Shown here: positions 32,684 through 64,000 of the stretch, one piece after another
Numbering within the stretch: the stretch's first letter is position 1
Layout: every line of letters begins with the position of its first letter
Origin: Pagrus major
Lineage: Eukaryota > Chordata > Actinopteri > Spariformes > Sparidae
NCBI RefSeq assembly: GCF_040436345.1
Contig: NC_133238.1
Coordinates: forward strand, 12,354,126-12,418,125
Direction of reading: 5' to 3'
DNA: 64,000 nt
Notes under the pieces: model-generated
Told to the model about the DNA's origin: nothing
Database searches by the model: none
Seen by the model: the letters and a program-made list of their open reading frames with translations, nothing else
Position numbers and translations under genes: made by a program

Positions 32684-35600
32684 TTAGATCTTGGTTTGTA
32701 CCACCTCCTCGTCAGAGCTGGATCCTTTAGAGCTCCTTCTGTCCTCTTTGTGGTTCTCAACAGACACCTTCCTGGCCATCTCCAAACTCTTCTTTCTGTC
32801 TTTCTCATCAGGCTCCATCTCTTCAGGCTTCCTCACGGCAAACTGGGCTTCTATCTTGGCCGGGTCGATGTAGGTGTAGAAATAGGCCATGACGGCGAAG
32901 ATGATGCACACCAGCACCAGCAGAGAGGCGAAGAGGATGTACTCGGCCCACTAGTGGATTAACAAAAACAAAAAAAAACACACACAGTTTTAATCTTTTA
33001 ATTTTTGAATGTTTGAAACTAAAATTCTTACGTATCGCACCTTTAAATTTAAGTTTAGCTCTCAAAAATACACAGAGGAAACCAAATTCATCAAGTTTCA
33101 CACATTAACCATGGGCATTTTATCACACAAAATGAACTTTGAGGACAATATGTGTCAAGTAACGGTTAAATAATATCCACCCACCTGATCTTCGAGCGTT
33201 GCAGCCTCAGCGATAATGAGCACAATGATGTTACCTACAGCGACAGTTAGCAGCCAACCAGCCTGCAGCACAGACTTCATGTTGCTGGGTGCCTTGAGGG
33301 CAAAAGTAGATTCATACAGAACTTTAATTATTTGTGTTTTTCACTTGTTTCCAAAATGCTTTTGTGAGGAAAGCACCCTCTACCTGTGAGTAGGAGAACT
33401 CCAGGCCGGTGACAGAGAAGACCACCTCTCCTGCAGTCATGAGGAAATACTGAGGGATCTGCCAGGCCATGTGGAAGGTGTTAGGGCTCATGTCCATAAC
33501 TGGTTGGATGTAACTCTGGCACTGCAGGACAGAGACGGGAACCCAGATGTGTTACCTCAATCAAAAACAGCTACATTCGAGCTATATTGTGACTTAAAAT
33601 GTATTTATGAGTTACATCTTGTCCAAAAGTGAAATTCGGCCTGATGATCATGGTGTAAGAGCTGCCGAAGCCAAATTTCTGTTGGAAGAAACACTCTTGT
33701 CCTTCGCTGTCCTTGATCGAGAAATTTGCACTGATGTAACAAGAAAAACACCGGTCAGTACAAGGACATTTCTCAAACACTATTGCATGTGACATATTAA
33801 CAAATAGCAGTCTTACTTTCCCTGTGGAACCGCACCATAAGCTGACATGTTGTTGGTGTTGGTGTCCCCAAACAGCACCTCACCCAACGTTATGTTCAAA
33901 GTAGAGTTAAAACCATTCAGGAATCTGGGGAAGGAGAATTCAGCGCACAACAGTCAGTCTAAAAGTGAGTTTACGCAACATTTGGAACAAGATTAAACAC
34001 GTTCTTTTGCTGCTACAGTGTTATCTTACCAAAGTCTGATCTGAGTTCACTAAAGAACTTGAGTAAAAATAAAAATAGCTTGTTGTTCATTTGCCTATGA
34101 TGACAGGCTTACTAAATCACACATATACCATAATAATGGCCGCCACCTGGGGGCAGCATATCACCAGAGTAACTGTTATCTGCTGCTAAATGTAGCTGCC
34201 ATTAGCGAGTTAGCTGAGTTAGCCGTACAGCGAGCACTCTGGACTGGAAGCGCGGAGAGGTTTTATGAGACGGGACTAGCTCGGGCTAGCTGGTTAGCAT
34301 GCTAACTTCGGTAGATATCTGTTCAACAATACATAGATGTCTTTGACGTAAAATCCAAACTGTTATTTCTTCACATTCTGGTGATGTTAAGTAAAAATGT
34401 GTACATGTTGCACCTTTAAGAACATCACAGTGGCCTAAATGTAATGGTTCTTTTAAAGACAAAAAAAAAAAAAACAAGTAATCAAACAGCCTCATAACAA
34501 TTTGAAACTTGCCTGATAGCGTTAGCGCCTTGCTCCGGCTTTGCTTTGATGTCCTCGAACTGAAGACAAAAAGATACATTAGAACCTCCACATCTTTATA
34601 TGTTAAAGAAACTTACAGTTTAAACATAATTTAAGTCCATTTAAAACAACATGTTGTCACTATCTGGCTCTCGTACTCACCTTTATGTACCTGGGTAGGT
34701 CCCCATCCTGAATGATAACCAGGGTAGTCCGATTGCCATCTGCTAAACTGGCACTGTAATTGGCGTCAGGCCCCAGCTGCAGTTGGAAGGTGTCAGTAAA
34801 GGTCAGGTAGTCCTCGCTGCCCTGTAGCAGAAACATAAATCAATATTAACCCGTCCTCAACCCTTTAGTGTACGGTGACTGAGAACAGACAGTTTTAGTA
34901 ACTTTGTCAACTTTGTGTCTTATATTGACTGAAGTACCATGTAAGGGTCCAGGGGAAAGGTGTTGTTTCCAGCTTTAATGTCCAGCTTTCTGTCAACCAT
35001 GTTGATGAACTTCACTTGGACTTCATTGCTTGATGGGAACGTAGGCAGTGTTTTCTAAAAGAGAAATGGCATCGTGTCCATGTGTGTGTGTAAATTGCGC
35101 CTCATAAGATTTTGTGTACATCGAAGTTACTCGGCGTACGTTTTAATGTGTCACACTTACATCAATTTGTATCTGGACCAGGGCAGCAGCGATGAACGCG
35201 AGAGCAGCGAAGAGCATGCCCACAGTCATCCTCTTCAACGGACTGCAGAAGACACGTGTTCATACACATTTGAGTTTATCTTCATATCTCTACGCCCTAC
35301 TCAGACACATGGAACAATAGTTTCAGGCAGCCAAAATGGACAGCAATAAAAATAGACTCACCTGAAGTTTATTTTGCACTTGGCAATCAGTGGGTAGATC
35401 ACACTGTCCATGATTGGCACCAAAATGAGGATCAAGATAGGGTTGACAGTCTGGTGGGGAAGAAGGCGAGTTGCTCTTTAAAGCCATGTCAACAGCATCG
35501 AGGAACACCACAACAAAGTGAGGAAAATAATCAGCTCAAATGTCTCACCTGCATCTGATCGGGCTGGATCGTGAGAACTCCCTGTTGAAGAAGAAAAGGA

Positions 35601-38600
35601 GAGAGACAAACAGAGTCTCATTTATAAAACAGTCTTTTCTGATGTTTTAGTAAAAAATGCTAAAAGTAAATCACTTACAAAGTCGCCGTTTAGGGTTGTA
35701 GCCTGGAGGGTCCATCTTGAGCCCTGTGGAGGAGACGCATCTATTCTTTAGTCTGACTTTTGAATCTGCCACTATCTTTTTCTTCTAACTGTCAAGTGTC
35801 CAGGAGAGAGAATTGGTTGTTACCTGCTGGTCAAAGAGAGCCCAGAACATGGGCAGAGGGATGTAGAGGAACAGCACCTTCAGCACCATCTTCACCTGCG
35901 CAATCAGGAGTTTCTGGAGCCAAACACAGACAGTGATTATGATTTTTACATCACTGATTGTGCTGTTTGTATTTGCACGGGCATTTGTACTGCACTTACA
36001 TCATATCCCTCCTCAGCCCAGTCCATCCAGTGGTCTCTCTTTGGATATTGAGGACTACGGTGTCTAAAGCGGTTATTGAGGGCAAACTACAGATAGCAGA
36101 AAGAAAACATTTCCATGTGAATTTTCCCTCTAACTGGAATGTACTTTGTGACTGAAACGGTAACTGAAAGTTAACAAAGGTAACTAATGAATGTTGTAAT
36201 AAATTATACATGTTCCACTTACCCCGATGCAACGGCAGACCTTCACGATGATGTTGCCTTGAGGGGCAGTCTTATTGTACATACCACTTCCAATGATGAA
36301 CACAACTGCAGAAATGATCAGAAATTAAAGGACATCATTGTTAGAACTTATTTTAAATACTGGTCCAGCTTGTGCATGCACTTCACATGGGGTGTGAGCT
36401 AACGCTTTTAGCCTAGCAGCTACAATGAAGATTTCAGCTTTAAAAATGGTGTAAATAACATCTTTCCTAATCAATTCTGGATCTCAGAAGACTTAGGAGA
36501 CTTGGATTACGCTGGACAAGCTGTACGGAGCCATTTTATGTTTCTTTTCAGTTGTTTTTTCAACATTTTAAAACAAGTCCCTATCTGCTTCAGTTGTGTA
36601 GGAGAACGCTGCTTTGCTGTGAAGCTCCAGAAATGTTTTATGGACTACGAAACTTCACCCGACTTTCCATCGGCACGGGGGTGAGGAGATAACGACTGAA
36701 GTTTTAATTTTTGGGTAAAGTTATCCTTTAAGTTGGGGAGACTCACAAGAGACAATTCAAAGTTAGACAGACTGACTTTTATTCTCTAGTATGGGCCAAG
36801 ATCGGAACAACACTGGAGCCTACAATTCCCATAACATCACATTACTATCCGCTTACATACGGCCAATAAAAAAGTGATTAATTCATGTAAATTGCTACAA
36901 ATTGTTCTACAGAGCCCTTTAATAAAATACTTCTTACTATGATGTAGCACTGATCTGCTCACAGAAACAAAAATAAAGAAAAGAAGGAGTTCTTACTCAG
37001 AGCTACCACCATGAGAAGAGCGGGGACACCAAAGGCCAGAGGGTAGCACTGCATCTTTTTGTGAACACCACACTCCTGAGCTGGAAACCACAGCACACAC
37101 ACACACACACATTTATTAAACTTCCATATGTGATATCTTTCACATAGTTTAAGCTTTGTGATCAACTTCTGCATACCTCTCAGGATGGGGGTGATGATAG
37201 TGGACAGCAGACTGCCAGCATTGATGGACAGGTAGAAGATGGAGAAGAAGGTGCTTCTCTGCTTCTCCTGTTGGACACAGAAAGTAAAAAATAAATCAAG
37301 ATTGTGACGTTATAGCATCGATTAACATTGGATGCATTTTCCCCAAACTCTTACACAACATCTCATTTCACTTGAGTCATTAATATTATGAGTAATCTTT
37401 GTCCCGGGCCTTGAACGGACAGATGGACCTGTGATCATTAGTTAATCAACAACAGGCTGGAATGAAGCAGAGATACAAGAAGTGCTGACGGCAGGAATAA
37501 CTGAGTGAATCATCTTTTTAATTGCTGTGTGCACGTGTGTGTGTGCGTGTCCTGCATGTGGTGTGTGCATGCATTCATGGGAGGTCAGCGTCCATGTGTA
37601 TGTTTACATGTAGCTGCATCATGAGTGTGTGTACCTGTAATTTGCAAAGTGGGTATAAGGGTTGGACAAGAGTGTGAATACAGTGTGTGTGCTTGAGCGA
37701 CATCTAACCTGATGGTCTTCAAACTGGTCTCCACCAAAGGCAGCCACGCAGGGCTTGATGCCTCCTGTTCCCAGGGCGATGAGCAGCAGCCCCACCATGG
37801 ACAGAGCTCTGTGGGCACGACACAACACAGACACTCTGTCAGTATATCTGTTTGTCAACCTGTTGCGTTTCTGTCACAAAAACCTGAGTGTGTGTTCAAC
37901 TCACACGTGGAGGGTCATGTCATCGGGGATGCCATCCCTGTCGCGATCTGTTATGTCATGGATGGCACTTATTGCCATGATGATCTGTCCCAGCGTGTAA
38001 ACGATGGACAGGTAAACAATGGTCCTGTGCAGAGGGAGGAGGAGGAAGGAGCGAGGTGTTAAACAGGTGTGCATGAGGTTCAGATAGAGATAAGATAGAC
38101 ACGGGTCAAAAATCCAAGGATGAAAGTTAACAGCTGATTCTGTGATATACTTTGACCCTAACCTAACCCTGCAGACAAGCATACATCTACTATTAAAAAG
38201 TTTTTTTTGCAGGATTTGAAACTCACTTGAACTTGCCGAGCCATGAATCGGCCACGATGGCTCCCAGGATGGGTGTCAGGTAGCACAGAGCCACAAAGGT
38301 GTGGTAGATAGTGGTGGAGAAGTCATCGTCCCACTGCAGGAAGTACTTGAAGTACAGCACCAGCACGGCTGCAGACGGGAGGGAAGACGGAGAGAATGGG
38401 AGAAAGTGAAAAAGAGGTGGAGAGATGGGAAGTATTAAGATATTTAGCTTACAGAAAGTAAAGAAGGTCACGACCCCTCAGATGTGTCTTGTGACCCTTT
38501 AGAGGGGTCTGAACCAAAGGTTGGGAACCACTGAACTTACTACCTGACTGTATATAAAGTATTTAAAATACTCACAGGGATCATTTTTCTGCAAAGCGGG

Positions 38601-44026: not shown

Positions 44027-47000
44027 TCAGAGTATGGTGGTGGAGCCGTGTGGGTTGGCACTAGTCGGTGTGCCACTGATGGCGTTGAAGATGCCCATGG
44101 AGTCGGACAGCGCGCTCCTTGTGCCGTCCTCCACTGGGTTTATCTGGAAGGTCACATTATTACGATTAGGAAGGTTGTTTGAAAGTGACACACACTCACT
44201 CAGGCACGTACATTTATGTTTAGGGACTGTGGGGAAATTATTCGAGGAGGTTTTGGTGGAAGTTGTTTCAAAATGAAGGGTCGAAAGAGAACAACAACGC
44301 CGAGGAGGGCTTTGCTTTTGTCTTAAATTACGATACGATTGAGCTCGTCTCCCCATTTTTATAATTTTCATACAGTCCCTCACAGTTTCTGTAGTAACTT
44401 CCTCAAATGACAAAAGCACTGTTACCATCCAATCTGCTCAGGCCAGCACAAAGAGAGAGGAGACAGGAGACCCGGTTAGTAAACGAGCAGAGGAGTGCAG
44501 CAGTGGACAATAAAATGAGCACAATGAACATAAATAGTAAAAATGAACTAAACAAAACAGCTAGTTGGAGTCTGAATGATATAACCCACATCTATACCTG
44601 TTCATGCATGATGTTCGACAGCTCCCTGGCCAGGTCCCTGTAGCTGGCCTTCATCTCATCGTGGTACTCCTGCTGGTCCTCTTTGATCAGCCGCTCGTTC
44701 ACTCCCAGCCCCTGACCGCAGGCGTCCACGAATTGCCTGAGGGAGGGATGCGACAGGGTTTTAGTGCCACTTCAAAGCAACATGCAGAGGACAGAATGTG
44801 ACAGAGTAACATGGTAGGACATATTTCCATAGGCCGAGAACAAACCAAGGGAATAAGCAGCGAATGTTTCCATCATCGATAAGTACCTGAACACCTCTTT
44901 GAGCTGCTTGACCTTGTTGTCAGGATATTTCTTGGCACTGCTGTCGTCCAGGAAGGCTCTGGCGTAAGCGAGAGGGCCGGCATTGACCTGGAAAACAACG
45001 GAGGTGAAAGATCAGAAATGACACTGAAGGAGTGAAATGATTTACAGCCTTTGTAACTGGCAGCACGACCTCGCCACCTGTACCTGAACGCTGATGCTGC
45101 CTTGCAGTTTGAGCTGCAGACGGATCATGTCCACCTCGGAGGCCGAGCACAGCAGCCGCAGCTCGGACACCTTGGCACTCATCTCGTCTATGGCCACCTC
45201 GATGGGGCTCAGGTCGGTCTGGTGTTGGTACATGACCGCTATACGCTTCTTCACGTAAGGGAAACAGTGGGTGGCTGGATGGGAGACAGAAGAGGATGGG
45301 GAGGACTTAAATCATGCTTTCAAATGACATAAGAATTGTGCAAAACAACACTGAAAAACTATGCTGGGATGTCGATTCAGCTCAAAATTCAGATAAAATC
45401 AATTTGGCACTACAAAAAGACCTGCTGCCAAAAAAAAAAAGACCTGTGGCGACAGTACAGCCAAATATTGAGGCCCTAAACACACCCCTGCCTGCAGCCA
45501 AGTCATTATCAGTCAGCAGGATTATTACCATCAAAGATAACTACATGAACTTTGGGATCAAGTGAATAAACCTCACATGATCTTATCTGATTAATGTTTC
45601 GGGACCAGGAACAACCAGGAAATATTCTTGCTTTCTGCTTCCTGATGTTGCCGCTGTGATAAATAAGCCACACGGTGCGTTTCTTGCTCCTGCTCGTACA
45701 AGTCAAATTTGTGTCTAAACTGCTGTGATGATGGCAAATCATTTTCATCACTGTGTGCATGACCTACTGGTGAGAACGGTCCGCCGTTTACACTGCTCCT
45801 CCACCCCTCCCTGCTTCTTTCCCGACACCGTGAACGGCGTCTCAAACACGAAGCGCCGGATGTTGTGGCTCTTCTCGAAGTCGGTCTTCCGGTCCTCCAG
45901 CTCCTTGTCGTCTAAGTAGGGTGTGACGTGGGTCACCTGGATGTAGGCGTACTTGGAGTCCAAATCCTTCGGGTTCACCTGTAAGTGCACAGGAGACAGA
46001 TATATTTTATTTTGACTCAAACGTCGACAGCCCTAAAATATCTGTGGTCCTGGGAAAACCTTATAGGTGCAATATGTAAGAATCGTCAACTTTCACAAAA
46101 AAAAATCTAGCAATAGCCCTCCAAGTAAGTTTGTTTTGGGGTGAACTGCCCCTTTAATAAACTTAAACCTGCATTGTAAGTGGCTTATTTACAAGCTTTC
46201 ATCCAGAGTCAATGAACTGTAGCGATGCTGCTGTATGTTGTTTTGTAACCATGACTTTTCTGAACGCCGTCCCTGAACTCTGCACTACAAACCTCCTATT
46301 ACATGTTCTCCCAGGGCCATTGCACAACTGTCAGGGTCTACACCACTTCCCGTCACATAAACACACACAGACGTGATCCCACCTTGCCAGAGTCCTGAAT
46401 GATCTTGACGTTCTCCTGGCCGAACTTGTCGGAGTAGAGCTTCAGGAGCCTCTGAGAAATCTCAGACAGCGGAGTGAACTTTGGCTCCTTGTAGATGTAT
46501 TCCTTTCCATCTTCGTCCTCGAAGAAGCCCTGTGGAGGAGAGGAGGCAGGTCAGGAGACTGGTGTTGAATTCAGCCGTACAAATGGAGTTCTGCTTCAGA
46601 ATTTGACGACTTTTAACCTTTAAAAACTAAACACGTTTCTGACACAGCACAAGCAGTACACGGACAAACAAAACCCAATAAAACACATGTATGCAATACC
46701 TCATTTGAATGAGGTATTGCATACAAAGCCACTTATAGGACAATCAAAAAAAAAAAGAAACAAAAACTTACTCTACACCATTTACTCAATGCAAAAACAT
46801 GCATGTGCAGTTCCTCTCCACCACCGTTCAGCAATCACAAGCCAATGAGGAGCTAAATCTAGGTGATCCAGAGCTACGTTTAACCACTAATTGAACTCAA
46901 CAATATCAGGCCTCAAATAATATAACGATGCGAGGAGGCGGACTAGCACACCAGGCCAACACACACAGCTAAACCTCTACGGACTTACCGCAGCCTTGGA

Positions 47001-50000
47001 GAGGGAGGAGAAAAGAAGAGACATCTCTATTAACAAGAGAGTTTTAGGTGGGCTAAAGCTCAATGGTTTGTGTGCATATGTGTGTGTGTTTAGGAAGTGT
47101 TAACACAGTGAATGTGATTGCAAAAGGCAAGAGATAACATGACTTATTAAGAGTGCTAGCAATCATGCTCAGCAAAATAGTACTATAATACATCCATGGT
47201 TAGCTTATGTGTGTGTTTCACCTGTCCAAAGAAGGCCACTCTGAAGTATGTGCCCAGCAGCCTCTTGCCTGTATGCATCACCTCCATCACTTTGGTATAG
47301 GCACGGTGGAGGGTATCGTACAGGTGTGTCAGTTTCTGTTCCGCAGAAACACAAAGATTGCAGACATTTTCACAAAAATCAACCAAGAACTTAAAGAAAT
47401 AACGTTTTAGTAACTTTTTGCTTGATAAAAGATAGAAACACAGTCGAGCTGTTATCATAAAAATAGTGATTATTGTCGCTTTAAAAGGTGCAATATGTAA
47501 GAAATGGCACGTGTCGGATTTACACTGCAAACAAATAGGGGGCAGCATATCACCAGAGTAACCGCTAACTGCAGCTAACTGTAGCTGCTTATCTCAATTA
47601 TCCATGCAGCTAATGCTCATATTAGCTTACTCTGACTGGACTGGGAGAGTTAGTGTTGTTTGAGGGACAAAGTGGCTTGGAGCTAGCTGGTTAGCATGCT
47701 AATTTCAGTAGATATCTCTGCAACACAAAACATAGCTGTCTTTGACACAATGTACCTTTAAAGCAAGACTACACAACTTTTGCTGAATATCTAAGATGCA
47801 CTCCATGTTTCCTGAAAGGTTTATAGCACTGCTTCTGTCTGATCACTGTTCAGTTTACCTCAAAGTCTCTACGCTGCTCGTAGATGGGAATGATGAGCCT
47901 GTAGACATCGGCGATGAGCTCGTAACGCTCCGCCTTCCAGAGGCCGTCACCGCACTCCTCCAGCAGCTCCATCAGCACCTCCTGAACACACACACACACA
48001 CACACACGCACTGATGAATAAATATAAGCTTCCTGCAGTCTCAGCATATTTTACTGTTGCAAAGGGGGACATTTCTGTTTGTTCTGATTTACAAGGCTAC
48101 AGTGGACTTAAAACGAGCGTAATGTTCCTGTAAAGGCAGCAGACGTGGGAGGAAATGGATCCATCATGTCTGTTCTTTTTATTGGGGGATTATACAGAGG
48201 AGGAGATGGAAGGTGGAAGCGCTTTTTCGTTGCCTACAGATGTGTTGACCAAGTCATAAAAGCTGAGAAATTCTCTGGCCATCACTTTCAATTTCACATC
48301 AGTTTAGACCAGGCAGCTTTCCCCACACATAAACTGGTATTTGTACACCTCACGCATACTTTAAACCAGGCGTACAAAGGTTTTCAGGAGATTGGTGCAG
48401 GGAAATGACAAAATATAACGAGAGAGATGTTTTGTTCTGCATCCATTTATGATTAATGTTAGGAATGGAAACGAAACTTGGACGCTGGAAGACGCTGGAA
48501 CCAGCAAATGTTTGACATTTTTATGCTTAAAAAATGACTTTAACAGGTACAATAATATTATTACAGGGATGGGGCTCTGTTGGAACAACAAACATGGGGG
48601 GGAGGGATTAATCTATAATTCAAACAAATGCCCATTGATTTTCTTTCAGTCGACTAATCAATTAATCTAGTGTCAACAAGCCACTTCCCCTGCCGGAGTG
48701 TCATTGATTAAGAAGACACTGAATCCCTCTACAGGAGTGTTGACCCTGAGGCCAGACCGTTCTGTGTGCCAGCTCAGTGATTTTCTACATTAACACATGT
48801 AACCAAGCCCCAAGTCAAAGTCTACAGTATTTTCACGTCTCGGAGCAATTGATACTCTTAACGGAGATAAGAGACGGTCATTATGTGACACGTGATGCCA
48901 ATGAGGAACTTAAAAAAACATCTAAATGCTTGGTCAACACAGCGGAGCACAGCGTGTAAGGAGATTAGTGTACAGCAGTTTCACCTCGTTGAAGTGAACA
49001 TCCTGCATCCCCACGTCCTCCATCATGGCCGCCTCCTCGTCGATGTTCGGAGTGATGACGCGGAAAGCCGAGCAGCCCTGCCTGAACATACCTGAACGTA
49101 CAGATACAGAAGCAACATGAGTGGTTTTGTTTTTTTTCCCCAAAACTAATGTGTGAAAGGCAAAATTAAATTTCGAATTTGCTTCTTTGGTTAAACATCT
49201 TTAAAAATAAGAGAGCCTCTGTGGAGCAAAAAGGTCGACGCAGTGTTTGACAAAGGAGCTCTGAGGGGAAGTCAACCCACTCTGACCTGACGTTGAACTT
49301 TCATAAAACCCTGTTGTATTTTACAACAGATCCCCGGATCCAAAGTCTGAACACAGTATCCTGGTTGGTATGTGCAGAAACACGAGAGGGGATCTTATCT
49401 AGAGAATGCAGTGTTTTTAACACGGGAACAAACAGATGACCCTTGGACGGCTGCTCAGGTGGAGGATGAAGGTGTATGTTCCTGTGTGTATATGTGTAGG
49501 TGTGCGTGGAACAGGACATGCTCGTTTTATTTCTCAACAAGCAGTGCAGAGAGTAAATAAGTAAAGAGAAAAGGCAGGAGATATTCAAAATCGCCTGCAA
49601 ATTATATCAATCGCTCCATTAAAAAATAGGAATATGCATTAATAAGCGACCTCCTTGGCTTCACCAGGCCCAAAAGCATTTTTGTTGCCATCCATAATCT
49701 TTCATCAGTACACAAGAAGTGAATCAAATGAATTTATTGAGTTTGTTCAACACTTATTCCTGTATAATCTTCTCTCTACGGTGATAAGCAGTTACTCATT
49801 ATATAGCCTCTATAAATTGGGATTGTAAAAGTGTTTGAGTTCAAACGATCAGCGGTTATTTAGCATACTGTTCCGACTCCTATATCCTCGACTCACCTTT
49901 CCTCCACAGGTACTCAGCTACCAGAGCAGCGACGTGCACATAACACATGGCTGCCTGCAGGTGGAGCAGACAAACAGAGACAAGGCACAGGTTAGAGATG

Positions 50001-53000
50001 TAACGCAGGGTTAGGGCCAAATAAAAATAAATAAATAAATAAAAATACCTCTGAGAGATCTCCGTTCTTGTGGTGGATACGTGCCATGCTGTCCAGCCAT
50101 GTCTTTCTGAGCTCGGGCGTGCTGGTGTAAGACTTGGCCAAGCTGTACTGGAGGTCCACCAGCATCTCCGGATCGTTCTCGTGCTCCTTCATCTGCTCCG
50201 TGGCCATCAGCACTGTGCGGATGCGCTTCATCAGGTCCTTCACATCTGACGGGAATGCTGTGTGCTACAAGAGGACAATAGCCAGATGTAAGTCTTGTGA
50301 GCCTGTTTTTGCAGTCCAGACCACTAGTTGCACGGCTAACTGAGCTCACTAGCTAAAGGCAGCTACAGTATCATCATTCTCCCCTCACCTTGATGTTCTT
50401 GTCACTGTTGGCACAGTTGTTAATGATGGAGAGAGACTGCTGGAAACGGGTACCCCCGATGCCGATGACGTCAGCAATCAGCTGACTGACAGCAATGACC
50501 ACCTGGGTGAATAGAGAGGAAGAACAAAGATAATCAATGTTACACTAACGCAACAAGAACATGGTTAACGACTCATCAGAAAGGCTTAAAAACTATTCGA
50601 CACACATACCTGCAGGTGTGTTCGTACAAAAGACTTGCGTCCTGTGTAATCAAAGTTGCTTTTCATGAGGAAGTAGAGCAGATGGGCGGCGTCACTGCGG
50701 ATACAGCTCAGCTTGGAGTTACAGCACTTGAGGATTTCGTAGCATAGAGAGGCACACATGTCGGCCCTGCCGTCGAAGAAGGTGCAGGGGAACTGGAGGA
50801 CACGTGGAGGGAGGCAGGATGTAATGCGTGACAAATACAGCTATCAGGGAAAAAGACAATACAACAAATGTTCTGATTTCCCTTTCACCTTGTAGATGAA
50901 GGTCCTGAGCGAGGTGAAGACCTGTTTGAGGGCGGCCTCAGACTGAGGGATCTGCAGGAAGCAGAGATGTACCTGGAAAACTTTCTTCATCAGGGGGTTG
51001 TGACCAAGATCTGAAGTAAGCTGCGTCTAAGGGGGACAAACCAACCAAGATGTGATTAAGATGCAAAATGTCATGTGTCTTTGTTGTTTGTATCAACAGG
51101 CTGTCGCAGCTGATACCTTGAATCCCATGATGAAGATGCTGAGTGTGTCCAGCACAGTCAGACAGACCTCTGTGGACACATTGGCCTCCAGCAGACACTG
51201 GCTGCTCACGTCTGCTTCCGTATGAGAGTACACTGCACAGATAGCACACACACAAGGTCGCTGTTAAAAGATATATCTTTATTGGAGCAGTAAATATGTT
51301 TTTCACTCAAACATCACCTGCTTGATTAGGTTGTTGATCAGTACCAAGCACTTCTGTTCTGCTTGTTTATGAATGGAGATAAGCTCTGTCATTGTTATTG
51401 CAGCTCTTATTGCTGCCTATAGAGGTCAGTAAAAGACACAGACGTTTAGTTTAGCTGCTCACCAAATAAACAACTAAAATCATATTTTAACCAGACATAA
51501 AATAGTCAAATTACTGGTTGGTGCTTGGGCCCTAATAATCTCTGTTCCAGCCCTGGCAAGCAAGCAAGAAAGCAAGAAAGAAAGAAAGAAAGAAAGAAAG
51601 AAATCTGCGAAGCCCTCTTGGTGTGACGTTCGTCCTCTAGAAGTCAGGACAGGACAGGATGTCTTACTGTTGTTGAAGGTGTGAGCGTTCTCCAGCGTTC
51701 CCAGCTGCTGAAGACGGGCATGCAGGATCCCCGCCCTGTTACGAGACACAGGCAGAGTCAGAGACTTCCTGTCGGGAGCTACAGGCCCCGCCGCCTCCTG
51801 GCTCCTGTTGGGAGAGGAGAAACACTGTTAGCGGGTATGCTACGGTCACATGATAGGACGGTCAATACATCGATAAAAAGGCACACAAGAGGAAATGTCT
51901 GAGGAAATGTCTCAGTGGTGTCGAAGAACAGTAACAGATAGAAACAGAGCAGACAAATGAATGTGGCTTTAATGGCAGCATCATGCATTAATTAGGCAAA
52001 GTGACACCGGCAGTCTCTTACCCACGCAGGAGGGGCCCCGGCCCGCGACATTACCCACAACAACAACTTTCCAGCAGTGTTACAGACGAGAGAACAAACC
52101 AGAGGCAAAGGGGTTAAAAGAGTCAGTCAGTTTGTGTTTGTAAGTCTGTGCATTAGTGTGAGTCATATTGCATAGATGAGGAACATAATTAGTTTCGGTT
52201 CAATTTTTTAAACACAAATAAAGTCAGTTGAGATAAGAGACGTAACACTGTACCTGACGATGAATCTCTTCCCCATGTATCTGAACTGATGGAGGCAGAC
52301 TCTGCAGGACAAACACAAGAGGTGGTGCTCAGTCGGAGATCATTGCCAGACTCAACTTGCATAAAAGTTTGTCAAGTTCTGTGCTTACTCTATTAATGTG
52401 AAGAAGTCCATTAAGTCTGAGGGAGCTGCTTTGTTCCAGTATGCAAACAGGGCCTCTGGGGTGGAGGACATGGGAAGAAAAATCTTTAGAAAGGATTAAC
52501 TGTGGGCCAGTTTTTCATATCAGCAATGTGTCACGATCAAGTACAGTCACTCAGATGACAGTCTTACCCTCTGACATGCTCTTGAGGATGTGAAGGAAGC
52601 ACATGAGCAGGTTTTTGATCTCGTCCCGGTCAAGTTTGTCGCAGCGCAGCACAGTGCTGCCCAGAGCCGACGCACACTGGTTCTAGAGGGAGACAGAAAA
52701 CAAATAAGAGGATAGAAAGTTCTCGTTATCAGGCGCAGACGGCGGAGTTGCAGAAATCGGAAAACTTCAAAAGAGATAAGGAACATCACTCAAACCCAAA
52801 CTTCAGAGATGAGAAATGTCAAGTATTTTCCTCCGGGGCGGACAAAAGCATTTGCTGAAGCAGCTCTGTGCTTTGAGATAACGGCATCAATTGCAGGTTT
52901 GAAGAAACACATTTACAGTTACATTACAGCAACTGAGGAAATAAGTGAAAGAGGCCATGAGGTCAGCTCAACCTCCGCAGCACACACACTCCCTGACGTG

Positions 53001-56000
53001 GGACACTCAGAGGAAGAATGTAGGGAGGAACTTAGGGAGGATTTTGGACGTACTGTACAGACTTCAGCAGTGTTTTTGGTCTCTAAATTTGACACTAAAA
53101 GCAAAACTCTGGTTTAGTGGCTCATAAAAAATCACACATCTGCTAAATTCTGTACAACTGCAGCCAAAAGTCTCTGTCGGAGAGCTCACAAAGGTCAAAC
53201 AGAATACTTGTATGAGTAAGTTTTCCTCGTGATTCCCCTCAACCCTCTGGCCTGCCGCTTGTTTGTCATTTTCACTGTCGCTGTCCTGCAGGAGGTGAGG
53301 CAGGGGCACAGACAGGAGCGAGAAGTCCATGGTGACCCGCTTGGTCGCGCGGTTCATAGGTGGGAGTTGATCCTCGGGGTCCAAGGGGAGAGGGGGAACG
53401 TTGACCGAGTGCCTCCTGGTAAATCCCTCCTTGTAGTGGGTTGGGAAGGTTACAGAGCAAGGACAAGGGGAGTGGGAGCTCTGAAGGAGGGGGTGGGAGG
53501 ACAGCGAGGACGTCCAAGAGTGCAGATAATGTAAAATTAAACAGAATTAGGGGAGTGCTGAGCGAACTACCAACTTTTAACTTTGTGTTTTGTTGACATT
53601 GGCTTTATTTCCTCATTATTTCAGGTCTCACAGACCAGAACCATGAAGCATATTTAATCTCCTTACGCTCACTGAAGCCAGATAACCTAACATTGGCGAT
53701 ACTGGATAATTGGTATCACAAAGCTGGTCAAACGAAAAATTTATGACTTTAATCTCATCAATACAAAGACTATAAAGTCCAAACATTTGCGAGATCTTCT
53801 GAGATTAAAGCCACAAATTTATGAGAAAAAAAACTTGGACAATAGTGTTTTTTGTCAAGGAACCGTATGGCTTCACTTTGCAGAGCTGGACTGACCTCAG
53901 TGCACCACAGACGGCACCACTTTCGGTCTAATATGCCTGCAGTTGATGATATAATCAGATGACATTCTGTGATTGGATTTAGCAATAAGAAAGTACTCGT
54001 GATTTTGGCCCAAAGTGACCGTATTATCATAACCAGCCAGACTTTGAAGAAATGGCCTGTAACCAGCAATATCCTTACATCTGTCTGGTTCATGCAGTTC
54101 AGCTTTCTTTCTTTTTTTTTTTGCTGATAACCACAAGGAATTAAGGCTACTGCAGCAGCGAAAGGTGATATTGAACGATATTAGATATATTATCACGTGG
54201 AATGAGACATTGTGAAATAGGATTGTGTGATTCACTAATATTGCAAGTGAAGTATCATTCAAGTATTCATGTACCTTCTCTAGGGAGTTGGTCTTGTCGC
54301 TGCTCTTGTCCAGGAGGCTGTTTCCAGAGTCAGTGGAGACCAGAGAGCCCCTGGAGTCCGCGTGGTGCACTGAGCTGACGTTGGGGGTCGAGCTCTGAGG
54401 GGAGGCTGCAGGAACAGAGCACAATAGTTTGCTGCATATCAGAAGATGATGAATCTACAGTTTACACACGCAGAGAACATTAAGCTCATCATGAAGATAT
54501 TTAGGATAGAAGAGTGCGGATCTACCTGTTCCAGAGATGACCCCGAACACATCTTTGTGGAGGGCATTTTCTATGCAGCTCCCAGGTTTCTGAGGAGTCA
54601 CCATGGAGTTGGGCACCAGGGAGTCCTCCCTGGCATTCTGGGACAGAAAGCAACAGATTGAGGATGCTTTCAGCTGAAAGGTAAACACTGGTAGTCAAGA
54701 CAGTGACCTGTTCAGATGACATTAAGCCAGTAATTCGTGTTTTGAATACGTGAGCTGCCATTTAATTTCCCACCACTAGGTGTCATGCTTACATTGTGGT
54801 TGCTGAGGGGGGCTGACTCCTTGATGTCAAGTCTGTAGACGTTCTCCTGGAGCAGACCAAACAGCGGGAGGTAGAGGGTGGCAAGTCTGGCCTGCTGGCT
54901 CTGGAATGACACAGTAAGTGCTCATGAGTCAAAAGTCAGACTGAATTTATCTTCAAGTCAACCCAGGCCTGGAAGCGTACGCGCTTTTCATTTAATTCAT
55001 CCATTTATGGTGTGTTCAAAGTACAGTAAAAGGTGTTGTAGAGCTCACTTTCGCAGCGTAGCGGTCGTCAAACGTGTGTTTGATCATCAGCCCCTTGAGC
55101 ACCTGGATGGCGATCTGACGGACCTCTCTGAACTCCTGAAGAGCCCCGCCCACCTCCCTCATCAGCAGCCCCACCAGGAAGTGGTTTCGACAGAAGTCGT
55201 CCGTCAGAGAGTAATCCAGCTGAAGATCTGTAGCAGGGCATCAGTCAACAGATTGCAGCGGACAAGGAGAATATAAACCGCGCTCCACTTAGATGAAAGT
55301 GACGTTGAGTGTGTGATTTACCTTGGAACCTTTGAATTCTGCCTTTTCCGAAGGGCATGGGCAGATTAAGAGGGACAAAGTGCTCATGGTTGCAGACCAC
55401 CCGCAGGAATTCAAACTTGAACTCGTACAAAGTCTAATAGGAATGCATGAGAAAACACATTTTATGATGGCTTTAATAACTGGGATAAAAGCGTTAAAGA
55501 CGGTAGCAGGGGAGCCTTTTCACCTTGGGGTCGCCAGGCACAAAGCAGTTCATGTAGTTGTTGATCTGCTTGAATACGAAGCCCCTGTCCATGAAGGTGA
55601 AGCAGCGCTGAGTGAAAAGGTGAGCAAACATTACATCATTGTTTAAAATTATGTTAATCACCAAACATAAACCATCTGCAGTGAGGATGATTTAAATATA
55701 ACTCTACGGTCTTTAACCGAAGGGCAGTTTTTCAAGCTCATCTACATATTAAAGGACAATAAGTCACTGCAGGCGTCGGGAGGAGTGCCAACCTTGATGA
55801 AAACTGCCAGGCTGTGGTTGGCATTGCGAGCCGCATCCAGGTTGTCCTTGTATTTCTGCGTGATGTGTGGCATCAGCATATTCACCAGAGTCTCCACTGC
55901 GTGGTAGAACGATGCAGAGAAACGCTGGTTCCTGGAGAGCTGCGAACAACGAGAAAAGAGGGAGAGGATTTAGGCTTGGAGGAAAGTGGTTCAAGAAAGG

Positions 56001-59000
56001 AAGACTGAGGACTTAAACAAGACCCACCTTGACCTTCCCACACTCTATGAGATAATGAGCCATTGATTTCACCAGGCCTTCAAAGAAGTACCACGAGTGC
56101 TGCAACACAAAGAAAGAGTTAGGCAAGGAAAGCTACCATCCCAAATGTGGAAGGATATGTTTACAAGATGCTAAAATTATATTTAAAAGGAGTCCAGGCA
56201 TGTGACAAGCAATTACGCCATAGAAATGTATAATTATCATGAAAACAACATGTAAAATTGTTGTAATTACACAGTCAACTCAACAGCTAAAGCAAGAAAG
56301 CTGAGTCTTCTTACTAACTTATATCTCAACGTCACTCTTTCTTCATTTACAGTCTTTCTGAGACAGAATAGATATGAATTTAGGTTACCTTTAGCAGCTT
56401 GTTGCTAGTCAGGAAGTCTGTGGATGGCTTGAGGATGGCAGTCATGGCTTTTGCCAGCTCCTCATGAACTGTCTTTACGTTGGTGGAGGAATAAGGCTCG
56501 GGCTTAAACACAAACTGAGAGTAGAGAGGGAGAAAATGAGATTTTAACTTAAGCAGGAACATATAAATATACCTGCACACTGTCATCATATAGTGAGAAA
56601 AGACTGCACCTTGACATAAGATCTCAAGTAATGTTCAAGCCCTTCTTCGTGGCACTGTGCTACCACATGAACCATCACCCTGCACAGAGACACACATGGT
56701 GACATAAAATATAAAAGAATAAGAAAAGGAGGACGTGAGGCTCGCTATAAAGAACTAGCCAAAGATAGGAATTACATTTATCCATTCAAAGGCACTGACA
56801 GCTCATTTACACACTGCCTACAGAGCTTCAAAGACTACTCACACACCCAACTGAGATACATACACAGCGTGTGCAAGCCATAGGTGAGTCTAATGAGAAA
56901 AAGGATTCTGGCTATTAAAGAGAAACAGAGGAAAAAGAGAGACCCAGATGAAAGTGCTGTTATTATAATTTTCTACAGATGAAGTTTGTTAAAAGAGACC
57001 AAAAATATCGTTCGGACACATAACTTTCTGCTGCTGGAAACCAGGCGTCTCACACATGTGTGCTTAAGCGTTTGTGTTTGGCTTGCCTGGTCACGTTAAC
57101 AGCCACATCCTCGTGTGTGGCTCTGGTTAGGACGCAGAACAGCTGGTTGAGGATGGTGGGCAGAAAGTTGACCATCACATGACCTTCCATTGCATGGAGA
57201 CTCTGGGGAGGGAAGGGAGGAAGTAAGACTCCTGCTTGTCATGTTCCCTTAAATGCTAGATTACAAGATTTTATTTGACGAGACAAGAATAAAAGGGGTG
57301 TGTTGCATTTTCCCCCGGGGGGGAATTAGCGATAAATTACGCTCGCAGTACCTTTAGGTATTTCACCAGCTCCCCTTCTGAAGCTTGTTCTGACATCTCC
57401 ATGCTTTGACAGTGGTGGAAGAAGTTGTGCAAGTGTTGATCCTAAAGAAAACACATCATTTACTCATATATTTGACATTTATTTCCATTGAGGTGAGCAG
57501 GTGAGATTGATGGACATAATTAAATGGACACACCTGAGTGTAAACTGTAGAAACAAGATGAGTTGAGACTTTGAACAAGGTTTTTCCTCCGTCTACCCAT
57601 TTGATCTCCGAGCCAGAGTGCTGTAATGACATGTAGGCAACCATTACTCCACTTAATATTGAATAAAACACTGCACTGTGTTGATTTATTAAAGCACATC
57701 TAGAATAACAAGGCACAAGCAACATGATATAATCAATAAATTAGCCGCAGTTCTTTTGTAATATGAGAAGACAAGCTGTCTTACCATATGGCTACAGTTT
57801 ACTACAAGATAAATAAATACAGTCTTTTTAACCAGAGTTCTTATGAAGTAATTGCAGTCAGAGTTTAGAGGCTCAATGCTGGCTCATTTTGAGAGAACTG
57901 CAAGTGTTAAGCACAGCCACTGTTACATACATACTACAGCTTTAATTAAATTTACAGGAAACCCATTATCCCTGCACCACATAACCAACACACAGGGATC
58001 TTAACGGTAAGATGGCATTGATTGTTTTTACTGGATTAAATTTTAATGCTCATCAGATTCCACAGGCATTTCATGTGAAAGCCTGTCGGGGCATCTGCGA
58101 GGTCCCAATCCAATCACAGCTAATAAGATCTTTGACCATTTACCACAACCTGCACCGGATCTTTTATGGTAATGCATCCAATCTTAAAAACCATTTTGGA
58201 AAACTGTTTGACCGGCAGAACAACTTCGATCTAAAGCACTTACGTGCCTTACTTAAACAGAATGTTGCAGCAATCAATGATTTCCATAAACAACCACAAG
58301 TCCTGCTGAGATTTTAATTTCACAGCCCTCTCCTGACCTTTAGTGCTAATCAACTGCACGCATAACTCTCAAAAATTAATAAAATGTCTAATATTAATCA
58401 TCTTCTTTTACCTTGTTGACACCATCCTGGGAGCTGAGGTACCCGGCGGGCAGATTGGCAGCCACAGGCAGCTGCTGCTCATTCATGATGACTCTGCCGT
58501 CCCGTAGCAGAGGCAGCCATGCTGAACCCACTGTGAGTAAAGGACAGGTAGAGGCCACATGGTTGTAAAGAAGTAGTAATACAATTTAAAATATATCTAA
58601 CAACCTCATTAAAACTACCATCACGCTGTACAAAGTATGCCTGTATCAAACAACTTTTGCACATATGATGCACAGCAGAAATGAACATGAATTCACTGAA
58701 ACACAGTAGAAATACCCGCTGGAGTTTTAATTCAGAAGGGGAAGACGTGACTGAAAGCTGCAGCCTACCTGGCGTCTCCACCAAGTCTTTCTTCTTGCTG
58801 TTGCTGTCACAGCTCACGTGATAGAAGGTGAAGAGAAGGTGATGCTTCTCATGCAGCTGAGTAGGCAGCTCTATCTTTATCTGAAGGAGAGAAAAACACA
58901 GATTCCTGGGGTTCGTTCCCTAATACACAGGGGGCTTTGTTCCGGAAAATGAAAGTGAAAAAAAAGGCCTGCGGAGCATTTCCAGTGGGGATTGAAATGT

Positions 59001-62000
59001 GCTCAAACAACATAAGAGGAGGTGAGAGGTACCTCCTTAACTTCAAAACACTCTGCTTTCAAAGAACATATAACTTTTTGACTTTGAGCATATGTTGCAG
59101 AGCATATCTGGCTCTCTCTACTGATTATTAAGCATTTAACAATACCTATGATAGCAATAAAACTCTGATTATGAGTAGTATGAGCATATAAATACCTCAT
59201 CATAGAACTCAGGGTTCTGCTGGTGGTGCAGGACGGCTGCATATGCCTGCTTAGTGAATAGAGAACCTCCTGGACGGCCATAGATGCACTGCAGTGGATT
59301 CATAAAGTAGGAAATAATCAAACATGAGAGAGAGATAGGAGTGCATGTTTGAAGTCCAATGAGTTCAAAGCAAATACTTAAGTCAAGATGAACCAGTCTA
59401 GAATCAAGTCCACAACCAAGATAAACCAATTTTAAAAAAAAGAGACCCAAGTTGAGTGTCTAAATCAGACAAACAGTACCTTGTCAAGACTGACAAGTTA
59501 AACCAACAAGTCCCGAATCCAGTCCGAACTAAGGCCAACAAATTCAAAGTCAAGACCCAAGTCGAGTCCAACAAGTCCAAAGTCAAGGCCGAGTCCAAAG
59601 TTAAGACCCACATCAAGACTAACAAGTCCTAATTCAAGTCCAATGAGTTCAAAGTAAAGTCTCAAGTCAAGATGAACCAGTCTAAAGTTAAGACCAAAGC
59701 AAAGACCAACAAGTCCTGAGTCAAGACCAACAAGTCCCAAGTCGAGTTCCAACCACGGCCAATAAGTCCAAAGTTAAGACCCAAATCAAGGCTAACAAGT
59801 CCAAAGTCAAGACCAACAAGTCTTAATTCAAGACCACTGAGTTCAAAGTCAAGTCTCAAGTCAAGATGAACCAGTCTAAAGTCCAGAACAAAGCCAAGAC
59901 CAACAAGTCCCAAGTCAAGACCAACGAATCCAAAGACAAGTCCCAACTAAGGCCAATAAGTCTAAAGTCAATTGCCAACTTGAGACCAACAAGTCAAGAG
60001 TCAAGACCAAAGTCAAGACTAGTGAGTCCAAAGTCAAGTCCCAAGTCTCGACCAACAAGTAACAAGTTAAGTCCTTTTTTAAATTTTTAAATCAAATCAG
60101 TATCAGTCAGTAAGTATATTTGCAGATTGTATTTATCACTTTCAAAAAATCTTGATATATTTAAAATCCAAACGACCATGTGTGGCTTGGCTTGCACAGA
60201 GCACATAACCAGAGAACAGCCAACAGTTTCATTTTGGACTTTTGGCAAGTGTAAATATATTTTTGGCACAGTATGTTAACCACAGATGATAAAGTCCAAG
60301 TGAAGCCACGAGTCACCGGTGTCCATTGGTGTCGATTCCAAGTCATGTGACTCGAGTTCACACCTCTGTCGGTTTGATTTTTGTCATTTCAGATTATGTA
60401 GCATGCAAAGAGCTGAAATGAGAGCTATGTATACACACCTTCAGCGGCAGGGCTTCATCCTCATCAGTATCCTTGAATTCAATGCAAACGGCAATATTCC
60501 TCGCCTGAAGAGGGGGGACGGAAGTTTGGGAACAGACAGATGAGAAAAGCATGTACAAGTCCCGAGATACCCCAGAACAAATTTTAGCTGGACACTTTCT
60601 TGACTGATGTGTATTAGATGTGAAGAGTGGGAAGATATTTCAAGGAGAGGATAGCCAGCTCTCATTTAAAGTAAAAGTGTGCAGAGAGACAGATGATGGG
60701 GGAGAAGGCAGGTTGATTTCCGAAATGGAGCTGACCTAGTGAAAAACACAAGCCTGTATTAATGTATTAATCAGAAGCTGCTGCTCTGCGTAAGGATAAT
60801 TCTATCCAGCTCTGCTGCTGGCTGAACGAGCCAGAGGCGGTTGCCAGTTGTCTCACAGGGTAGGAACACAAAATGATGATCATGAGAGAATGGTGGCCAA
60901 AAAAAAGCTTAACCTTCCAAAAAGGAAAAGTCACAGGTTTTGTGATGACTTTGTAACATATGAAGGTTAAAATATTGATTGTACCACTAAAAGAAAGGCT
61001 CAAAATTAAAGGCATAATCCCCTTTTTCCTCTTATTCAAAGGATTGTTACATTAACTTAACCTTTACCTTTGCAAAGGATTTCTGTCCGTCGTATTTGAG
61101 GTGTTTTGGGTACACGTAGAGGTGGTTTTTATAGATGGTGAACGGTTGGGAGCACTTAGCAATGCAGGGTACAAACTCCTCCACCTCCAGGAGAGCGCTG
61201 CCGGGCCCGTTGCCTTCAAAGTTCCTCACGGGGATGTAGGAGGAAGTGACACAATCTGCAGACAGGAAACAAGAGGAGTTACAGAGTTCAAGGTTGAAGT
61301 CTGACGCTTATAAATAGATGTTAAAAGTAAATATTTGGAGGGTTTACTGGTTACATCCGGAGCCACACTGTCGATAGTCACATCTAAGTTCCCCAAGAGG
61401 ACAGGGAGTTTGGCCATTTTCTCTGGTCTGTCGGGAAATCAGACACAGAAACAGCAATAAGAAAACTGTATAGAGATCAGTTGTAGTGATCTTCAGAGAG
61501 GGGAAGAAGCGTACTTTCTGAAGTCAGTGAGCAGCTTGAACATGTCCTCGTCTGACAGCTTGCTGCTGTCCTGCCTGTAAAGAGCTGAGAAGCGAGCGCC
61601 TTTGTCCAAAGTTCCTGATGCATCTTTGAACACAGGCCTGCGGAGACAAAGAAAGAAACCTACTGGAGAAAGGGCACATTTCAGTTCCACACTAGTGGTT
61701 CAAAGATTTGTGAATCCCAACAGGCTGACTTTCCTTTGACAGCTCCCACTCAGTCTATACGCAGTATCCTAAATCTGAATCACTATGTGGCATCGTGGCA
61801 CAAGAGAATACGTCTCCTCGAACTTTGAGAAGCTTAAAGTTTTCCTTCAAGTGCAAGAAATCATCAGATGTAGTATATGATTCTGTATAACACCAACCAA
61901 CCCTGACACAAGATTTACCATTTATGTTTATCTAATGTATTATCATTCTAGGTTCTCAATTCCCTTTTCTTCAGGGAGGGAAACAGACTGCCTGCTGGTG

Positions 62001-63009
62001 GAAGTCCATTTATTCTCTTGTAAACAAAATTGGGTACAAGCACTTGTGTTGTGGATATCTGAAATCTTTAATTAGCAACTGAACAAACGGTGCAAACATA
62101 CCCAATAGTCCAAACCAAACTTTATTGTGTAATTGCTTTGTAGATAAGTGGGTTTGTTCTCTGTCATGCTGCAGAGGGATTTAATTTCTTTTGTTGTTTA
62201 TTTTGAATGTGGGGGTTGTGGCTGTTTTGTTTCAAGTTCTTTGACACAACAAACGAAGATTAAAGAAAATACACAATGGTTTTTAATACCTTGCAGCCCA
62301 GGCGAATGGCATCCTGTACTGCCCCAGTCTGCTGCAGGCTGTCTTCGCATTCTTCAGCACCTTTTGAGCCATCTATAAGTAGTCAAGAAAAGTGGGGTTG
62401 ATTACACAGATTAATAATTTGAGATTTCACAGCCTCATCCTCGTCATCTCTACCAATCTCTGTACCTTGGCTGAGTCTGAGCTCTTCATGTAGGGCTCGG
62501 TGCAGTGGGTGATCCCCCCCTGCAGCACCTTCTCGATCCTGGCCACCAGGAAGATCTCCGGATGGGGGCATGTGACTGAGAACACCCCCTGTTTAGGGTA
62601 CTGGAGAGCCCCCTCTGGGAGCCCACTGGCCTGCCTGTGGCTATCTAAGGGACCATCGCCACTGCCGTTGATGTGCATGTCATGTCCGCTGACAGAGCCT
62701 GATGTCATCTGACGGACCAAAGGGTGGTTGAGGTCGACGTGGAAGTCGGCCGAGATCTTTCTGCTGTTCTGGACGTCGAAGAAGGAGAGGACGACATAGA
62801 AAGGCTCCACCTTTGATGAATAATGGGAGGAAGGAACATATTTTGAGGAAAGAAAAAGGACAGTAGTTTACTTTTTGAGGGATACGCATCCTTCCTAATG
62901 CACTTCTCGTTTTCCACTCAGTCAAAATGTACCATAGATGTAATTCATCTTCCCTTTCTCTCTTTCCACTGTGGATTTCCATTACACAAACCCATTTGAG
63001 CATGTGTGT

Positions 63010-63072
<63 letters not shown>

Positions 63073-63833
63073 CTGAGTAGCGGAGCTAATAGCTGTGGTT
63101 TCCCAGTTGAGTGCTGAGTGTAGGAGGCGTCCGTCTCTTACAGAGACAGAGACCTTGGAGAGTGACGGCAGGAAACCAGCCTCAGACTGGTGCTAATGCA
63201 TGATGGGAGGCCCAGGCTGGTTGCTATGGTAGCGGCCATCCCTCGTGCCAACAACACCAGTTTTGGCAGGGGCCAGCCAAGTGGGCCATCTGAACTGTCT
63301 GTGATCTTCTTAACTGATTTAAACCTCGCCCTCGTTCACTAAAGGACGTTTCCCGGAATTATTCCAGAAGCGTGATTCTGTCCTCGCACACACGTGTGCA
63401 TTCACAGATCTGTTGCCTCCATGTCGACTTAGAAATAGACTTGTAATAAGCACCTTCATCTATGTTTGTTTTTCACTGAAACGTACATTAGTTGTTGGTC
63501 CCTCCTCGTTCTCTGCAACACAGCCCTGCAGGTTGAACGACAGGTCGTGACAGCTGACCAGGACTCTCTTCCCGAACTTCTCTTCAAACTGCCGCACGTC
63601 GGGCTCAATGCCAGAGAAATCCAGTTTCTGTGGAAACAGGAGATGCTGTCAGGAAATCAGTCAATAACAGGAGCAAAACTGACTCTGGTGCCAGGGAGAT
63701 GAGAGCAATACTCATTCGGAATGTACAAGGATTAGCATTCAGGTATTATCTTCATCACCTGTGTGTCAGGATCCAACGTGAAGAGTTTCAGGCGAGCTTC
63801 ACTCCTCATTTTGGACTCAATATCTCTGGCAGT
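44027..63833 (-). CDS. dock9: dock9 (zizimin1), Cdc42 guanine-nucleotide exchange factor, lacking ~300 N-terminal residues
   Basis: Forty-four phase-consistent coding exons encode the last 1768 residues; the gene runs past the right edge, so the PH domain is not visible. Exons 1-24 (5' to 3'): 63759-63833, 63487-63627, 62466-62810, 62290-62372, 61515-61637, 61348-61427, 61068-61255, 60439-60504, 59196-59288, 58769-58880, 58412-58530, 57534-57620, 57352-57441, 57087-57202, 56610-56679, 56389-56514, 56028-56099, 55793-55939, 55524-55607, 55322-55433, 55049-55227, 54793-54900, 54526-54637, 54275-54405. Exons 25-44 are listed under the armadillo-like and DHR-2 entries. The protein activates Cdc42 at membranes and promotes filopodia and dendrite growth. 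The exon strings [42 protein letters not shown] and the C-terminal [11 protein letters not shown] identify DOCK9 over DOCK10/DOCK11, whose tails differ. Exon 14 uses a GC donor and exon 38 is a 6-base microexon. Confidence 0.95.
46688..46725. repeat. near-perfect 38-bp palindrome
   Basis: Two 18-base arms (tgtatgcaatacctcatt and its exact reverse complement) are separated by only TG. It sits in the dock9 intron just downstream of the 6-nt microexon in transcription order. No related copy was noticed in the window. Confidence 0.85.
46989..46994 (-). other. dock9: dock9 6-nucleotide microexon (Ala-Ala)
   Basis: Between the exon ending ...RVAFFGQ (47222) and the exon starting [11 protein letters not shown] (46529) lies GCTGCG, preceded by ttttctcctccctctccaag and followed by gtaagtcc. 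Both splice sites are strong and the exon is in frame (two alanines). From memory, mammalian DOCK9 reads FFGQAA at this point in some isoforms, which supports it. Skipping it also keeps the frame. Confidence 0.7.
47484..47760 (+). repeat. MITE-like inverted-repeat element, copy E
   Basis: The left end is aaaggtgcaatatgtaagaa. The interior includes gggggcagcatatcaccaga and gctagctggttagcatgcta. The right end tgtaccttta is degraded. It is located in the dock9 intron between exons 36 and 37. Confidence 0.7.
47984..48008. repeat. (CA)n microsatellite abutting a dock9 splice acceptor
   Basis: A short AC run starts a few bases from the acceptor of the exon at 47859-47981. On the transcribed strand it forms a (UG)n tract directly upstream of the gtgttcag acceptor. 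Confidence 0.7.
51570..51601. repeat. (GAAA)n microsatellite in dock9 intron
   Basis: About seven gaaa units follow two gcaa variants. It lies in the intron between exons 28 and 29. No function is indicated. Confidence 0.7.
53244..53429 (-). other. dock9: candidate dock9 cassette exon (62 codons)
   Basis: In the 1.6-kb intron between exons 24 and 25 there is an open stretch with an acceptor cccactacaag|GAG at 53429. It is phase 0 on both sides, as the flanking exons require. It reads [20 protein letters not shown], then [20 protein letters not shown], then [17 protein letters not shown]. The composition (RRHSV phospho-type site, proline-rich, acidic DSDSEND) is protein-like and resembles the regulated linkers of zizimin-family proteins. 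The proposed donor AGG|gttgag is weak; a second in-frame donor CAA|gtattc lies 36 bases further on. Confidence 0.45.
58412..61255 (-). other. dock9: dock9 DHR-1 (C2-like, phosphoinositide-binding) exons
   Basis: Exons 7-11: 61068-61255, 60439-60504, 59196-59288, 58769-58880, 58412-58530 (roughly window residues 283-475). Hallmark strings are [78 protein letters not shown] and [13 protein letters not shown]. The domain targets DOCK proteins to membranes. Confidence 0.85.
59350..60075 (+). repeat. diverged minisatellite rich in aagtc units with higher-order structure
   Basis: The stretch is built of imperfect repeats such as aagtcaagaccaacaagtcc. A longer block containing agtcaagatgaaccagtct recurs near 59387, 59671 and 59865. 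Long minus-strand ORFs of repeated LGLD/VGL residues here are translations of the array. It lies in the dock9 intron between exons 8 and 9. Flanking sequence near 60290-60366 (gtgactcgagttcacacctc) matches the end of a common teleost element. Confidence 0.8.
63002..63070. repeat. (TG)n microsatellite in dock9 intron
   Basis: An almost pure TG run of about 34 units in the intron between exons 2 and 3; on the dock9 transcript it would read (CA)n. It is likely to be polymorphic in length. Confidence 0.9.
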
Positions 63834-64000
63834 CTGTTGAAAAACAAAGCAAAAAAAGGACTCATAGAAGAACAGCTTAATATTTAAAAAGGGAGTGGGA
63901 TGGAAACAATCAGCCTGTCTAGATCAGAGGCCTGGGTTGGATGTACTGTATAAAAAATTAAGGGAAGAAAGAACACTGATCAGGAAATCCAGGGACAGTG
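63834..64000 (-). other. dock9: dock9 intron at right edge
   Basis: The sequence upstream of the acceptor caacag at 63834 is intronic as far as visible. No exon is seen before the window ends. Confidence 0.6.

Follow-up and report, generated by a model that had tools for sequence, protein, structure and literature searches.

We analysed a window of 64,000 nucleotides of the Pagrus major genome. Its right-hand part holds dock9 (44030–64000, minus strand), the 5′ part of which runs off the window. After dock9, on the same strand, comes slc15a1 at about 32690–38480; one of its exons was confirmed (38226–38477; E = 1.4e-21 against human SLC15A1, with no Pfam match to this exon above cut-off), and the rest was delimited by eye. 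We take DOCK9 followed by SLC15A1 to be the order on human chromosome 13 as well. The dock9 region also holds a dinucleotide-type repeat at 62683–63192 (minus strand), whose translation reads as repeated HT.

Protein comparison favoured DOCK9 over DOCK10. The exon upstream of the site described below scored 63.9 bits against human DOCK9 vs 36.2 bits against DOCK10, and the two exons around the site, joined, scored 114.9 vs 95.2 bits. DOCK11 had no chain among the matches and is hence absent from this comparison. By best match (DOCK9 over DOCK10) and gene neighbourhood, the gene is assigned as the DOCK9 orthologue.

Within a phase-0 dock9 intron of 692 nt (47221–46530, minus strand) lies the hexamer GCTGCG (46994–46989, minus strand), preceded in the window sequence by tgtctcttcttttctcctccctctccaag and followed by gtaagtccgtag. 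The features around it, in the order of transcription, are as follows.

47222–47335, minus strand: upstream dock9 exon, phase 0, 38 codons, ending FFGQ; top match human DOCK9 (2WM9), E = 1.9e-17.
47029–47033, minus strand: candidate branch-point motif TTAAT, a consensus match, beginning 39 nt before the microexon.
46995–47023, minus strand: acceptor and its polypyrimidine tract (tgtctcttcttttctcctccctctccaag), which holds UCUU at −25 and −22; acceptor score 12.8 bits.
46989–46994, minus strand: candidate 6-nt microexon GCTGCG (Ala-Ala), identified from position, frame, splice-site scores and shuffles.
46983–46988, minus strand: donor gtaagt, 9.75 bits, compared with 7.2 bits for the upstream exon's own donor.
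46798–46803, minus strand: RBFOX motif TGCATG, 191 nt past the first base of the microexon and present once in the 692-nt intron; a motif match.
46383–46529, minus strand: downstream dock9 exon, phase 0, 49 codons, starting GFFEDED (segment ...IIQDSGK).
Predicted junctions from the exon ends around GCTGCG, minus strand: TTTGGACAG joined to GGCTTC when skipped; TTTGGACAG, GCTGCG and GGCTTC in succession when included.

GCTGCG sits 227 nt past the FFGQ exon and 459 nt ahead of the GFFEDED exon. Its six nucleotides are a multiple of three and both flanking exons are in phase 0, so the reading frame is kept, and its translation is Ala-Ala. Under the size definition used for vertebrate microexons (an internal exon of 3–30 nt with functional-looking AG and GT sites), GCTGCG has the size and the sites of the class. 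Its acceptor has one blemish, ending in AAG, not CAG or TAG. The intron downstream of the candidate also contains an inverted repeat (46688–46725) whose 18-bp arms match perfectly and are separated by 2 nt; the RNA of this region has a folding energy of −26 kcal/mol (z = −7.1). No further copy of the arm turned up elsewhere in the window with up to 3 mismatches allowed, and an Rfam search of the region returned eight weak matches, all far below gathering scores.

Splice sites were scored with hand-entered Shapiro–Senapathy-type matrices, not with MaxEntScan. On this scale, 28 of 7,646 GT dinucleotides on both strands of the window scored as high as the microexon donor, and 21 of 8,855 AG dinucleotides as high as its acceptor, its own site being counted each time. 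Across the 64 kb, both strands included, the GCTGCG pair was the only one this strong whose members were 3–27 nt apart in multiples of three. With looser cut-offs (acceptor 8 bits, donor 6 bits) there were four minus-strand candidates, GCTGCG being the sole one in dock9. The sites also compared well with those of the gene itself. Among 23 dock9 coding segments chosen by visual inspection, not all of whose candidate sites are proven junctions, the microexon donor was beaten by 1 of the 18 with a donor above 4 bits and the acceptor by 2 of the 20 with an acceptor above 5 bits.

We compared the pair with chance in several ways. On its own, AGN6GTAAGT occurs about as often as expected (2 observed in the window against 2.4 expected); once the pyrimidine tract is included, however, the site is rare. 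Whole-window dinucleotide shuffles yielded a comparable pair in 1 of 60 cases when each site had to be as strong and in 4 of 60 on the summed score. For shuffles of this 692-nt intron, the corresponding counts were 0 and 3 of 20,000. Because shuffling destroys natural pyrimidine tracts, a fairer test keeps the real donor and acceptor sites and displaces one set relative to the other; this produced at least one such pair in a fraction of 0.042 of 20,000 trials. Together, the shuffles and the shift control give about 0.02–0.07 equally strong chance pairs per window.

Neighbouring dock9 exons matched the Pfam families for lobes A and B of DHR-2 and, below its family cut-off, lobe C; the two exons flanking GCTGCG, alone or joined, gave no Pfam match above cut-off. 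The insert falls between the lobe A and lobe B segments. An earlier note on this DNA had placed GCTGCG exactly between two phase-0 dock9 exons, with a strong tract plus AG before it and a near-consensus donor after it, and had read it as adding two alanines after FFGQ within the DHR-2 coding region. Coordinates and frame confirm the placement, the scores of 12.8 and 9.75 bits bear out the strength of the sites, and the exon frames with the neighbouring Pfam matches support the position in the domain.

Passages of PMC10152721 give the catalytic valine of human DOCK9 as residue 1951, preceded by Gln1944 and Gln1950, and describe lobes B and C as contacting Cdc42 and lobe A as stabilizing lobe B. 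The spacing of these residues (1944, 1950 and 1951) fits a stretch of the fish gene. Carried onto 2WM9 through the ARAF motif at chain position 355 and the Q at 163, this numbering would have the insert follow Q1767 and precede G1768, with the catalytic valine 184 residues further on. There the helices of lobe A would end and lobe B would start with its first strands. In 2WM9, the human DOCK9 DHR2 structure, FFGQ adjoins GFF directly without AA, which corresponds to the skipped form; in the alignment, neither the human DOCK9 nor the DOCK10 structure constructs carry an insert at this site.

Mammalian DOCK9 is taken here to have a 14-residue insert at this site, starting AA, with QYQFTDSETDVE presumably its remainder, that is, the second part of the longer insert. 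The three sense frames of the fish intron did not yield QYQFTDSETDVE (best score 8, against a median of 10 in 300 shuffles), and the fish site would differ in this respect from the mammalian one. The insert string had no occurrence in the literature searched. A table in PMC8627023, citing Irimia 2014, lists a human DOCK9 microexon of 6 nt at hg19 chr13:99,461,376. It resembles GCTGCG in gene and in length, a likeness drawn from a listing of gene, length and coordinate. Because human DOCK9 itself has a listed 6-nt microexon, the two codons more likely form a separate exon of their own, and the listing argues strongly that a two-codon exon is real and old; GCTGCG is probably its fish counterpart. 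The earlier proposal that just the two initial codons of the longer insert of mammals survive in this fish, which would make GCTGCG a truncated remnant of a longer exon, is rejected on the same ground. The 14-residue insert would then consist of the 6-nt exon plus a second exon.

Optional exons of the same gene have been described in mouse, where Dock9 exons 37a plus 37b are regulated by Nova2 (PMC4633719); their lengths and positions are absent from the source passages. Only six identifiable dock9 coding segments come after the fish site, which makes identity with 37a/37b doubtful, and we rejected that equation; the mouse exons may lie elsewhere in the gene. The same passages name four Nova2 targets as alternatively spliced in zebrafish, Dock9 not among them, an absence that counts against the microexon but is weakened by that possibility and by the fact that a 6-nt change is hard to detect by RT-PCR. 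Passages of PMC6419433 mention Dock9 and give no exon. Among the papers listed for searches on the DOCK9 coordinate and on Dock9 with Ptbp or Rbfox, none besides PMC8627023 was, by its title, a splicing study of the DOCK9 microexon.

The flanking intron carries motifs of the kind associated with regulated microexons. Upstream, UCUU occurs at −44, −25 and −22 and YUCUCU at −47, a motif-level match to PTBP1 sites; downstream, the single UGCAUG (46803–46798) is a motif-level match to RBFOX, with a chance of about 0.1, by hand estimate, of one such hexamer in the 459-nt downstream intron. This layout, upstream UCUU with a downstream RBFOX site, agrees with the one described in the passages of Li et al. 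2015, where 129 of 141 responsive mouse microexons were more included after Ptbp1 knock-down. The canonical SRRM3/4 layout has a UGC directly upstream, between or beside the pyrimidine tract and the AG. No UGC lies between the two here: on the upstream side the closest TGC is at a distance of 82 nt, and the sole close TGC is inside the exon.

The regulatory motifs give a mixed picture. Of 95 zebrafish-conserved microexons, 42 had UGC together with a UC repeat or similar tract and 44 more were similar, typically with either one, according to passages of a study whose main text does not contain 'dock'. GCTGCG resembles these exons in being in frame, tiny and directly preceded by a long UC-rich tract, and differs from them in having no UGC between tract and AG. 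Within the wider family, a passage of PMC12626424 reports a conserved neural microexon in zebrafish dock7. The two genes are alike in encoding DOCK-family exchange factors with a microexon, the dock9 one being a candidate; dock7, however, belongs to another subfamily (DOCK-C), and the position of its microexon in the protein is absent from the source passages. The earlier note had taken the UCUU-rich tract to be of the PTBP1 type and to suggest neural regulation. The UCUU motifs do fit PTBP1, but neural regulation is not established by them, given the strong sites and the lack of an SRRM4-type UGC; it is plausible for this candidate exon.

We consider GCTGCG to be a genuine dock9 cassette microexon, optional or near-constitutive and probably corresponding to the 6-nt exon listed for human, with a probability of about 0.82. 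In favour of this reading are the position, phase, splice signals and statistical rarity of the site, which the sequence shows, together with the skipped form in the human structure, the human listing and the UCUU and RBFOX layout. It includes the case in which the microexon is nearly always spliced in, Ala-Ala DOCK9 being the default in this fish with no neuronal switch, which we regard as possible, though on the unlikely side. Donor and acceptor alike rank near the top of the dock9 candidate sites, which suggests that they would be strong enough for near-constitutive use, and the missing SRRM4-type UGC points the same way. In the passages of Li et al. 2015, unusually strong sites mark constitutive, not alternative, microexons, and constitutive microexons have a higher T content 5–20 nt upstream; the 8 T and 8 C counted there in dock9 do not decide between constitutive and alternative use. 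Against near-constitutive use stand the UCUU motifs and the RBFOX site, as well as the human DOCK9 and DOCK10 constructs, which lack the insert and thus suggest that the skipped form is normal in mammals.

It is improbable that GCTGCG is a chance pseudo-exon, that is, a strong acceptor and donor 6 nt apart that are unused or serve as a decoy. The bare AGN6GTAAGT pattern is common enough for such an accident (2.4 expected per window), equally strong chance pairs are expected at about 0.02–0.07 per window and the acceptor is an AAG; however, the near-absence of matches in the intron shuffles, the exact frame of GCTGCG and the independent listing of a 6-nt DOCK9 microexon in human all weigh against it. 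A consensus donor so soon after an acceptor might also mark a recursive-splicing point, at which the upstream piece of the intron is removed first and the donor regenerated. Vertebrate recursive sites are known from very long introns, whereas this one has just 692 nt, and six bases separate the AG from the GT. We rejected this explanation, given the short intron, and hold it to be very unlikely indeed.

If GCTGCG is a genuine cassette microexon, binding of U2AF to the long pyrimidine tract and of U1 to gtaagt would define the exon in spite of its tiny size. Where PTBP1 is high, the microexon would be skipped; where PTBP1 is low, as in neurons, it would be included, perhaps aided by the downstream RBFOX site. 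Inclusion would insert Ala-Ala between the equivalents of human Q1767 and G1768, near the start of lobe B, lengthening a turn there. The two alanines would tune exchange activity or partner binding and leave the catalytic valine untouched. More speculatively, and well short of even odds, the two alanines could act as a switch at the beginning of lobe B, common to fish and human, that tunes nucleotide exchange or the choice of GTPase in neurons; what remains of the mammalian insert would then be a separate exon, either gained outside this fish lineage or lost within it.

Human DOCK9 already has a listed 6-nt microexon, and the fish dock9 hexamer described here is a well-supported candidate for the same kind of exon. 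Exons of this type are likely to be omitted by homology-based gene prediction. If used, GCTGCG would offer a minimal test of how a microexon retunes an enzyme, and its presence would suggest that the Cdc42-activating domain of DOCK9 has long carried a two-residue insert in vertebrates.
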